Shown here: positions 33,422 to 36,638 of the stretch, one piece after another
How positions within the stretch are numbered: the first letter of the stretch is position 1
Layout: every line of letters starts with the position of its first letter
Assembly (NCBI RefSeq): GCF_020217425.1
Contig: NZ_CP084090.1
Coordinates: 1,674,001-1,738,000, forward strand
DNA: 64,000 bases
Origin: Halomicrobium urmianum
GTDB taxonomy: Archaea > Halobacteriota > Halobacteria > Halobacteriales > Haloarculaceae
Direction of reading: 5' to 3'
Notes under the pieces: model-generated
The model's input: the letters and a program-made list of their open reading frames with translations, nothing else
Told to the model about the DNA's origin: nothing
The model's database searches: none
Position numbers and translations under genes: made by a program

Positions 33422-34258
33422 ATGCGACGCACTCCAGCTATCGTGGCGGTCCTGCTGGTCGTGAGCGCCCTCGCGGCGCTCCCGATGGCCGGCGTGGCCC
33501 AGAGCACCGATACGTCGACCGAAACCGCGACCCCGACGCCGACCGAGACGCCCGACGAGAACGCGAGTAACGCGTCCGTCGCGCCCGGCGCGCAGCTCGC
33601 CGGCGTGGTGGGCGTTCAGGGGGCCGAGATCGAGGGCGACGTCCAGTCGCGCTCGTTCGGCATCCGCGTGACGCAGGCGGCGAGCAACGAGTCGCGCGCC
33701 GCCGTGGTCGCCGAGCAGCTCGGCGACGTCGAGCAGCGCCTGAGCGAACTCGAAGCGGAGCGCGAGGAGCTCCGCGAGGCGCGCGAGAACGGCTCGCTCA
33801 GCGAGGGCGAGTACCGGGCCCGCGCGGCGCGGCTCCACGCGGAGAGCCGGACGGTCCAGCGGCTCGCCAACCAGAGCGCGGACGCCGCGGCCGGCATCCC
33901 CACCGATACTCTCACGCAGAACGGCATCAACGCCACCGCGATCCAGACGCTCCGCGAGCGCGCGGGGAACCTGAGCGGGCAGGAGACCGCGGCCATCGCG
34001 CGGTCGATCGCCGGCGATCGAGTCGGCCAGCCCGCCGGTGACCGCAGTTCGGCCGGCAACGAGACGCGCGGTCAGGGCGCCGACGCCGGCGAGACCGAGC
34101 GGCCGGCCGGCAACGAGTCCGCCCCGAGCGACGGTCGGGGCGACGGGCGCGATAGCGCCGGCCAGTCCGGCGACGGTGCGGCGGCGACGACCACCGCGAC
34201 CGACGGGAGCGACGGTGACACCGACGCCGACCAGTCCGGCAGCCAGGGCGGTGCCTGA
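33422..34258 (+). CDS. Secreted coiled-coil protein with Thr/Asn-rich linkers (DUF7096-like)
   Basis: The product has 278 residues. A signal peptide (IVAVLLVVSALAALPMAGVAQS) is followed by a TETATPTPTE linker, a domain with QRLSELEAEREELREARENGSLSEGEYRARAARLHAESRTVQRL (a likely coiled coil), and a long low-complexity tail. Several N-x-S/T sites suggest N-glycosylation at the surface. TTTATAT at 33387-33393 is the promoter. The stop is 6 bp before the next gene, so both are cotranscribed. The function is unknown. Confidence 0.7.
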   Translation: MRRTPAIVAVLLVVSALAALPMAGVAQSTDTSTETATPTPTETPDENASNASVAPGAQLAGVVGVQGAEIEGDVQSRSFGIRVTQAASNESRAAVVAEQLGDVEQRLSELEAEREELREARENGSLSEGEYRARAARLHAESRTVQRLANQSADAAAGIPTDTLTQNGINATAIQTLRERAGNLSGQETAAIARSIAGDRVGQPAGDRSSAGNETRGQGADAGETERPAGNESAPSDGRGDGRDSAGQSGDGAAATTTATDGSDGDTDADQSGSQGGA

Positions 34259-34264
34259 CGCCGC

Positions 34265-34990
34265 ATGCCCAGGACAGGACGCACCCTGCTGATCGGCGCG
34301 GTCGCGCTCCTGGCCGTCGCTGCGGCCGTTCCCGCCCCCGCGACCGCACAGGACTCCGAACCGGCGTTCGTCGTCGACCTCGCGGAGAGCGGCGACGCCG
34401 TCGTGTCGGTCACGTACACGTTCGACCTGGACGGCGACGCCGAGCGACAGGCGTTCCGCGAGCTGCGGGACAACGAGAGCGCTCGCGAGGCGTTCGCGAC
34501 GCGGTTCGGCGACCGACTGCGGAGCGTCGCCGCGAACGCCGCGGACGCGAGCGGCCGCGAGATGGCCATCGAGGACGTGACGATCGACGTCCAGACGGAC
34601 GACCGGACCGGCGTCGTGACGCTGTCGGCCGACTGGCGCGGGCTGGCCGCGACGATCGACGAGGGGCTCGTCGTCACCGAACCCTTCGCCAGCGGTTTCA
34701 CCCCGGACCGGCAGTTCGTGGTCGTACTGCCGGACGGCTACGAGGCCGGCGAGGTCACGCCCGAGCCCGACGGCACCGGCGACGGCCGGCTGACGTGGTC
34801 GGCCGGCGCGGACCTCGACGGGTTCGAGCTGGTCGCCGGCGAGAGCGGCGGAAGCGGCGCTGCATCCGCGACCACCGAGGCTGCGGCCGACGGCGACCAG
34901 TCGACCGCGGCCGACGGGCCCGGATTCGACGTCGCGGGGGGACTGGCGGCCATCGTCGCCGCCGCGCTGCTGGCGCGCCGGCAGGCGTAG
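34265..34990 (+). CDS. Surface protein with PGF-CTERM-type tail, DUF7345-like
   Basis: The product has 241 residues. A signal peptide (LLIGAVALLAVAAAVPAPATAQ) precedes a domain homologous to the exported part of the 32154 protein: RQAFRELRDNESAREAFATRFGDRL then ASGREMAIEDVTID. After a Ser/Ala/Thr-rich spacer the C terminus reads GPGFDVAGGLAAIVAAALLARRQA, a P-G-F motif, hydrophobic stretch and basic end, as recognised by archaeosortase A, which would lipid-anchor the protein. It is the second gene of an operon after the coiled-coil protein gene. Confidence 0.78.
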   Translation: MPRTGRTLLIGAVALLAVAAAVPAPATAQDSEPAFVVDLAESGDAVVSVTYTFDLDGDAERQAFRELRDNESAREAFATRFGDRLRSVAANAADASGREMAIEDVTIDVQTDDRTGVVTLSADWRGLAATIDEGLVVTEPFASGFTPDRQFVVVLPDGYEAGEVTPEPDGTGDGRLTWSAGADLDGFELVAGESGGSGAASATTEAAADGDQSTAADGPGFDVAGGLAAIVAAALLARRQA

Positions 34991-35087
34991 CCGACGGACG
35001 ACCTCACCACTTCTCCGTCTGCTCCGGCGACGAGCCGCCGGTGAATCGTGTGCTAACCTGTTCCATCCCCGTGCCAATCTCGGAAAC

Positions 35088-35095
35088 TATTAATA
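35088..35095 (+). promoter_or_regulatory. TATA box for the arg leader transcript
   Basis: TATTAATA lies 26 nt before the ATG at 35121, the right distance for transcription to start on or next to that ATG. No comparable box precedes the argG ATG at 35328. The operon mRNA should therefore begin with the leader ORF and carry about 207 nt before argG. Confidence 0.65.
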
Positions 35096-35120
35096 CGGGA
35101 CTGTAGATAGGTTCTTCCAC

Positions 35121-35222
35121 ATGAGCCGGACCCGGACCGCTGGCGCGTTCGACGCGGACAGCGACGGGTCCGTCCGACCGCTTTTCGGCGACCTCCGACG
35201 ACGACGACCGGGCCGTCCCTAG
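35121..35222 (+). CDS. Arg-rich leader peptide ORF upstream of the arginine operon
   Basis: A 33-codon ORF starts at the predicted transcription start. Eight of 33 residues are Arg (MSRTRTAGAF..., LFGDLRRRRPGRP), including four tandem CGA codons at 35196-35207. Its position before argG is what attenuation by a leader peptide would need. CGGCGACCT (35186-35194), just before the CGA run, can pair with AGGTCGCCG (35267-35275), which in turn overlaps a local hairpin CCGCTC/GGGCGG (35273-35278 with 35289-35294). GGGCC/GGCCC also pair around the stop codon. The ORF itself is plain from the sequence; a regulatory role is inference, and no U-rich terminator is visible. Confidence 0.55.
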   Translation: MSRTRTAGAFDADSDGSVRPLFGDLRRRRPGRP

Positions 35223-35327
35223 GCCCACCTACACACAAACTCCTCTCCACGGTCCGTCTCGATTTCAGGTCGCCGCTCGCCGTCTGTCGGGCGGTCACTA
35301 CCCCACAGACACCAGTCAACACCACAC

Positions 35328-36638
35328 ATGCCAGACGGAAACGGAACGGTCGCGCTCGCCTTCTCCGGCGGGCTCGACACGACGGTCTGCGTACCGCTGC
35401 TGAAAGAAGAGTACGGCTACGACGAGGTCATCGGCGTCACGGTCGACGTCGGTCAGCCCGACTACGAGTTCGACGAGGCCGAGGAGACCGCCGAGGCGCT
35501 GGGGCTCGACCACTACGTCGTCGACGCCCAGGCGGAGTTCGCGGACCTCTGTCTCCAGGCCGTCAAGGCCAACGCCGACTACCAGGGCTACCCCCTGGGC
35601 ACCGCGCTCGCGCGCCCGGTCATCGCCGAAGCGATCCTCGAGGTCGCCGTCGAACAGGGCTGTGACGCCGTCGCCCACGGCTGTACGGGCAAGGGCAACG
35701 ACCAGCTGCGCTTCGAGGCCGTCTGGCGCGACTCCGACCTCGAAGTGATCGCGCCGGTCCGCGAACTCGGGCTCACCCGCGAGTGGGAGAACGAGTACGC
35801 CGAAGAGAAGGGCCTGCCCGTCGAGGGCGGCGACGGCGGCCGCTACTCCATCGACACGAACCTCTGGAGCCGCTCCATCGAGGGCTCCGAACTCGAGGAC
35901 CCCTCGACGATCCCCGAGGACGACATCTACCTCTGGACGGAGAACCCCTCCGGCAAGGAGGCCGAACTCGTCGAGATCGAGTTCGAGCAGGGCGAGGCCG
36001 TCGCCGTCGACGGCGAGGACCTGGGCTCGGTCGAACTCATCGAGCAACTCAACGAGCGCGCGGGCGCCCACGGCGTCGGCCGCACGGACATGATGGAGGA
36101 CCGCATGCTCGGACTGAAGGTCCGCGAGAACTACGAGCACCCCGCCGCGACGGTGCTTTTGACGGCCCACGAGGCGCTCGAGGGTCTGGTCCTCACGGCC
36201 GAGGAGCGCGAGTTCAAGCAGCAGGTCGACCAGCAGTGGTCCCAGAAGGGCTATCAGGGCCTCGTCGATGCACCCCTCACTGGCGCGCTGGAGGCCTTCA
36301 TCGACGAGACTAACGAGCGCGTGACCGGCACGGTCACGGTCAAGATGGAGGGCGGCCACTGCCGCGCCGTCTCCCGCGAGTCCGACTACGCCGTCTACAG
36401 CGAGTCGGCCGCCTCCTTCAACGAGGAGGACGTCACCGGCGGCATCACCCAGGAGGACGCCACGGGCGTCGCCAAGTACCACGGCTTCCAGTCGCGCCTG
36501 GCCAACCGCGTGCTCGAGGAGGCGAAGAGGGAGGAAGTCGCCACTGACGGCAGCGGCGAGGCCGCAGCGACCGACGGGAGCGAGGCCTCGGAAAGCGCGA
36601 GCGGCATCTCCGCCGCGGACGCCGACCGGGAGGAGTGA
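35328..36638 (+). CDS. argG: Argininosuccinate synthase
   Basis: The product has 436 residues. It joins citrulline and aspartate using ATP, the penultimate arginine step. The PP-loop is ALAFSGGLDTTVCVPLL near the N terminus; HGCTGKGNDQLRFE and YSIDTNLWSRSIEGSELEDP are the conserved substrate-binding blocks. The C terminus has a Ser/Ala/Asp-rich extension typical of halophiles. It is the first long gene of a nine-gene arginine operon; argH follows after 4 bp. Regulation probably involves the leader ORF 100 bp upstream. Confidence 0.97.
   Translation: MPDGNGTVALAFSGGLDTTVCVPLLKEEYGYDEVIGVTVDVGQPDYEFDEAEETAEALGLDHYVVDAQAEFADLCLQAVKANADYQGYPLGTALARPVIAEAILEVAVEQGCDAVAHGCTGKGNDQLRFEAVWRDSDLEVIAPVRELGLTREWENEYAEEKGLPVEGGDGGRYSIDTNLWSRSIEGSELEDPSTIPEDDIYLWTENPSGKEAELVEIEFEQGEAVAVDGEDLGSVELIEQLNERAGAHGVGRTDMMEDRMLGLKVRENYEHPAATVLLTAHEALEGLVLTAEEREFKQQVDQQWSQKGYQGLVDAPLTGALEAFIDETNERVTGTVTVKMEGGHCRAVSRESDYAVYSESAASFNEEDVTGGITQEDATGVAKYHGFQSRLANRVLEEAKREEVATDGSGEAAATDGSEASESASGISAADADREE

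Follow-up and report, generated by a model that had tools for sequence, protein, structure and literature searches.

The DNA directly upstream of argG in Halomicrobium urmianum probably controls the arginine operon as a leader-peptide attenuator, to judge from a comparison of sequences across the haloarchaea. In the 64,000 nt stretch that was analysed (the window; all features lie on the forward strand), argG, which encodes argininosuccinate synthase and is the first gene of the arginine cluster, occupies positions 35328–36638. It is preceded by a 33-codon ORF containing 8 Arg codons (35121–35222), the ATG of which, at 35121, lies 33 nt downstream of a TATA box, TATTAATA (35088–35095). A direct reading of the ORF gives MSRTRTAGAFDADSDGSVRPLFGDLRRRRPGRP, ending in ...LRRRRPGRP, and places four tandem CGA codons, the presumed regulatory codons, exactly at 35196–35207. 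Promoter, ORF and codon run are thus as a preliminary description of this DNA had reported them. The ORF is expected to be leaderless, with its start at or adjoining the start of transcription, and because the promoter lies 5′ of it, leader and argG should share one transcript. The preliminary description had named transcription starting after 35222 as fatal to its proposal; no TATA-like element is found 48 to 20 nt upstream of the argG ATG in the window.

An Arg-rich ORF before argG is a general feature of the haloarchaea. A scan of GTDB genomes yielded 80 haloarchaeal argG loci, to which six genus mates were added by DNA search; two loci (L023 and L034) are truncated by the end of a contig, leaving 78 with enough upstream DNA. 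Such an ORF is present in all 78, and also in those four genus-mate loci that were examined closely. It is 22–87 codons long, ends 85–214 nt before argG (or before the start of the argG match), and has a TATA-like element 29–36 nt upstream of its ATG in 81 of 83 loci. Arginine accounts for 23% of the residues in the leaders against 4% in ArgG, and CGA for 57% of the Arg codons in the leaders against 1.6% in argG, rising to 66% within the last 12 leader codons. The Arg codon run had been expected to recur in relatives if it were functional. The cluster is indeed conserved across haloarchaea but the exact run of four CGA codons is not, the relatives having 2–5 Arg codons that are at times interrupted. 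What is conserved are the Arg codons, the hairpins and the geometry of start and stop; the leader peptide is otherwise not.

The position of the Arg codons relative to a G/C hairpin, P2, is constant, since P2 directly follows the Arg cluster in every leader and the stop codon lies inside or just after it. In the window P2 (GGGCC gtcccta GGCCC, 35210–35226) is formed by 35210–35214 and 35222–35226, a pairing over the leader stop that was already recognised in the preliminary description, with the TAG (35220–35222) in the loop and 3′ arm. The stem is GGGCC/GGCCC in most loci, swapped to GGCCC/GGGCC in Haloferax and Halorubrum, and GGGGTC/GACCCC or GGGGC/GCCCC in Halorussus, variants that are compensatory between clades; where the automatic best stem picked another helix, P2 was assigned by eye. 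Directly 3′ of P2 follows a G-free tract (35227–35249), and in the aligned loci G makes up 0–1% of the positions +5 to +15 after P2. A third hairpin inside the leader ORF, P1, had been missed; its arms are CGGACCC (35127–35133) and GGGTCCG (35166–35172). It shows covariation, 13 of 14 pairs being altered on both sides in some sequence of the alignment, and when tested alone against shuffled sequences it reaches significance in 41 of 81 species. For the structure as a whole, 69.5% of the cells in the alignment are paired, compared with 21–50% when the structure is slid along it. Since RNAalifold returned no consensus fold for the 50-sequence alignment, these pairs were counted on a structure given by hand.

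The Arg-codon strand itself can engage in a long-range interaction. The pairing of CGGCGACCT (35186–35194) with AGGTCGCCG (35267–35275) on which the preliminary description had relied is present in the window but not universal. It belongs to an element at 35250–35275 able to pair with the Arg-codon strand (35186–35209) and so to extend the helix around P2. In the window this long-range pairing reaches a z of −2.9 (p 0.01), and the extended helix has a predicted probability of 0.79 without a ribosome. Besides the window, Halomicrobium, Halorubrum and Haloarcula sensu stricto show it strongly, yet no more than 38% of species attain p<0.05; we rejected it as a universal feature and retained it for the window and several clades. 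Mutually exclusive pairings are present in the window and some clades but not in all.

The combination of features upstream of argG is more than chance. Strict criteria, namely the TATA spacing, a length of 20–60 codons, and at least 3 Arg and at least 2 CGA codons within the last 12, were passed by 63 of the 78 argG loci compared with 3 of 119 control loci (trpC 0/29, leuA/cimA 1/30, argS 0/30, pheS 2/30). With a hairpin at the stop as an additional demand, the figures become 61 of 78 and 1 of 119, counts that are not independent trials, as the loci share descent. A covariance model built from 50 leaders recovered held-out leaders at the right place with 36–67 bits, those of Halorubrum scoring lower (14–27 bits) and near noise. 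Across 148 genomes of the phylum, the 12 strongest matches all lie directly 5′ of argG, one per genome; weaker ones of about 20–30 bits are not separable from noise in this GC-rich DNA.

Leaders of the same kind, with other amino acids, stand before two tRNA synthetase genes. In haloarchaea pheS is preceded by a leader of the form M(A)SEP...GFGFFF and one TrpRS gene (trpS) by M.SAP..WRWR..GADSV, and both occur in the window's own genome. Their early P1 hairpin begins mostly 2–12 nt into the ORF (CCGAATCCC/GGGATTCGG; TCCGCTCCC/GGGAGCGGA), is significant in 14/19 Phe and 13/16 Trp leaders, and has compensatory variants, for example CCACTTCCC/GGGAAGTGG and CTCGAACGCG/CGCGTTCGAG. In H. volcanii, uORFs with mapped starts appear in a dRNA-seq table at the same two genes, pheS and a tryptophan--tRNA ligase (PMC4983044, Table 2). 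No leader was found before trpC, leuA or argS in haloarchaea. Together these cases suggest that haloarchaea have a series of leader peptides, each specific for one amino acid, and they make codon sensing a much stronger reading than argG alone would.

Some further details of the two synthetase leaders may be recorded. The Phe leader is found at L104, L109–L111, L115–L117, L126 and other loci, and in the window's own genome (L231) it lies 800–719 nt 5′ of the pheS match. Its hairpin covaries, the 3′ arm extending into the Phe codons, and 3′ of the leader a GAAACCG could pair with CGGTTTC. The Trp leader (L130–L138, L140–L142, L144, L145 and L147; L134 in the window's own genome) has its Trp codons in the loop of the TCCGCTCCC/GGGAGCGGA hairpin and precedes that TrpRS copy which has the highest score against the TIGR00233 model, while at the other TrpRS-like loci (L146, L148–L158) no Trp leader was seen.

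Arg codons next to a hairpin, a peptide that is not conserved, a target gene for arginine synthesis and the Phe and Trp cases all fit the sensing of codons by a translating ribosome. Transcription would begin at or beside the leader ATG, giving a leaderless mRNA from which the leader would be translated. As long as arginine is ample, the ribosome should pass the rare CGA codons, reach the stop inside P2 and leave. P2 could then form ahead of the unstructured G-free tract, with added stability in those clades where the Arg-codon strand pairs with the downstream element, and most transcripts would end or be processed upstream of argG. A shortage of charged tRNA-Arg would presumably make the ribosome stall on the Arg codons that immediately precede P2, so that neither P2 nor the extended helix forms and transcription runs on into argG and the operon. 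We infer that the leader is translated, that ribosomes stall within it, that the response has this direction, and that transcription is the controlled step, as opposed to translation or mRNA decay. Attenuation as such, the reading offered by the preliminary description, gains from the conserved Arg codon cluster and hairpins and from the Phe and Trp parallels, with its regulatory effect as the conjectural part.

Folding under constraint predicts P2 with a probability of 0.94 in free RNA, 0.45 with a ribosome at the Arg codons and 0.00 with one at the stop. Since a ribosome at the stop also blocks P2 in the model, the switch would depend on the timing of release. The predicted accessibility of the argG start stays at 0.55–0.56 whatever the ribosome position, and direct sequestration of that start was rejected as a mechanism. 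Between the leader stop and argG no run of at least six T occurs (the longest is 2–5 nt, and 1–4 nt after P2), hence there is no standard archaeal U-tract terminator. The missing terminator and the unchanged accessibility lead us to favour control at the level of transcription, which would stop prematurely after P2 as long as arginine is abundant. In a H. volcanii reporter a hairpin caused 59% termination (PMC7237163), FttA-dependent termination has been proposed to police transcription–translation coupling (PMC11616081), and ribosomal proteins and RNA polymerase co-purify in H. volcanii (PMC8576121). If haloarchaeal attenuation is a general system, it perhaps relies on termination that is coupled to translation and is either of the hairpin type or dependent on FttA/aCPSF1.

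A further feature counts against attenuation, in addition to the missing U-tract terminator, the lack of an RNAalifold consensus, the incomplete significance of P1 and of the long-range pairing across species, and the block of P2 by a ribosome at the stop. In about 30 of 83 loci, mostly of Haloferacales and Natrialbales, a second TATA-like element lies just 5′ of argG, and a proximal promoter at this place would bypass the attenuator. The leader's contribution in these loci would be limited to regulated transcripts on top of a basal level. At L036, L040, L049, L051, L053 and their relatives the element is located ~31–35 nt upstream of the argG ATG; in Haloferacales and Natrialbales it replaces the region that holds P3 and the pseudoknot in Haloarculaceae.

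These last structures bear on the most serious alternative, in which the leader also senses codons but acts after transcription, the position of the ribosome setting the fold of the argG 5′ UTR and thereby translation or decay. The P3 hairpin, GCCGCTCG/CGGGCGGT (35272–35295), is found in Haloarculaceae and corresponds to the competing hairpin of the preliminary description, CCGCTC (35273–35278) pairing, as claimed, with GGGCGG (35289–35294), one pair being G-U. In the window it overlaps the element that follows the leader and can pair with the Arg-codon strand, as such an alternative would have it. Its loop, GTCTGT (35282–35287), may in turn pair with ACAGAC (35305–35310), a candidate pseudoknot that had not been noted before. 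In Haloarculaceae two interleaved helices, CCGCC..GGCGG and GTCGGGT..ACCCGAC, precede argG, with matching changes in L002, L025 and L031; the variants include GCCGGGT/ACCCGGC in L031, GTCCGGT/ACCGGAC in L025 and GTCTGT/ACAGAC in the window. These aligned variants suggest a pseudoknot; tested species by species it is weak, with 8% of loci at p<0.05. Its likely presence 15–45 nt 5′ of the argG ATG, together with the lack of a U-tract terminator, is what a post-transcriptional switch might look like, and the Salmonella orf34-speF leader, which senses Arg codons, acts in part by way of mRNA decay (PMC6386406). Nevertheless, the predicted insensitivity of the argG start to ribosome position speaks against it, as do the clades that have a proximal promoter and no pseudoknot and yet an equally conserved leader. 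We consider control after transcription less likely, at perhaps a third of the weight that the favoured reading deserves.

Sensing by the nascent peptide is improbable. The leader would then resemble the fungal arginine attenuator peptide, in that its product would bind arginine within the ribosome and stall it at the stop, and endings of the type ...RRRPGR* as well as the position of the stop codon are indeed conserved, the former in many species. However, the C-termini differ (PGR, PGL, PAL, RAL, GRF, PGSP, PSGQ), the hairpin occupies differing reading phases, the Halorubrum peptides are unrelated except for Arg, the strong CGA bias indicates codons and not residues, and the Phe and Trp leaders suggest that codon sensing is a general mechanism. 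With only the Arg clusters conserved and the hairpin shifting in phase, peptide sensing was dropped as the main idea. Equally improbable is a role that has nothing to do with argG control, the ORF coding for a small basic protein with a function or the region being a small RNA in its own right. The leader does have a promoter of its own, and about one third of the loci have a proximal argG promoter; but conservation of the peptide is limited to Arg, the ORF always lies directly 5′ of argG, where the strong model matches are single, and the amino acid matches the gene, likewise at pheS and trpS. An arginine-binding riboswitch with an incidental ORF, which the structured and conserved 5′ UTR might bring to mind, is the least credible explanation, given the conserved ORF, codons and stop, the absence of a single conserved aptamer core besides P1 and P2, and an Rfam search of 34000–36000 that gave no match near a gathering score.

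Leader-peptide attenuation by stalled ribosomes is well known in bacteria. Like the bacterial attenuators (trp, his, pheST), the putative haloarchaeal one combines a short ORF enriched for the cognate amino acid, a hairpin adjoining the regulatory codons, alternative pairings in the window and some clades, and a place before the matching biosynthetic or tRNA synthetase gene. It differs in its archaeal TATA promoter, leaderless start, stop inside P2, rare CGA codons and lack of a U-tract terminator, and in the second promoter before argG of some clades. In fungi, the arginine attenuator peptide of arg-2/CPA1 is encoded by a uORF that controls an arginine-synthesis gene and senses arginine through the peptide sequence. 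The location is comparable, but haloarchaea keep codons and hairpins, not the peptide. The nearest described case is orf34-speF of Salmonella, a 34-codon leader that gauges arginine through the pausing of ribosomes at consecutive Arg codons and through alternative RNA folds (PMC6386406). Unlike the haloarchaeal leader it controls ornithine decarboxylase and not arginine synthesis, uses Rho and RNase G, and encodes a conserved peptide (DUF2618) (PMC6386406).

The open-access literature yielded no description of attenuation, leader peptides or uORFs at archaeal amino-acid genes; as the search covered open-access sources, an earlier account in a subscription journal is possible. A review of archaeal transcription–translation coupling does not mention attenuation (PMC8116511), and according to a 2021 paper no target of transcription regulation other than promoter recruitment is known in archaea (PMC8448881). 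The passages of PMC4983044 on the H. volcanii uORFs in long 5′ UTRs do not interpret them as attenuators; argG is absent from its Table 2, and the ORF products are described as having a low isoelectric point. We rate it an even chance that a general codon-sensing attenuation with leaderless leaders (Arg/argG, Phe/pheS, Trp/trpS), the first in archaea and without a bacterial-type U-tract terminator, is at work here. If so, archaea would also control genes after initiation, through the position of the ribosome on the nascent mRNA, and their transcription–translation coupling would become directly testable in the tractable model Haloferax volcanii. It would also suggest how haloarchaeal genes for amino-acid synthesis and tRNA synthetases are controlled.

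Finally, individual argG loci differ from the rest. At L050, L047, L021 and L085 the leader ORF is expanded in frame to 47–87 codons, the expansions of L047 and L050 resembling tandem hairpins with Arg codons between them. At L007 and L014 a long, near-perfect, MITE-like inverted repeat (AAGGGTCGTTGTAACC...ACAACGACCCTT in L007) is inserted between P3 and the argG start.
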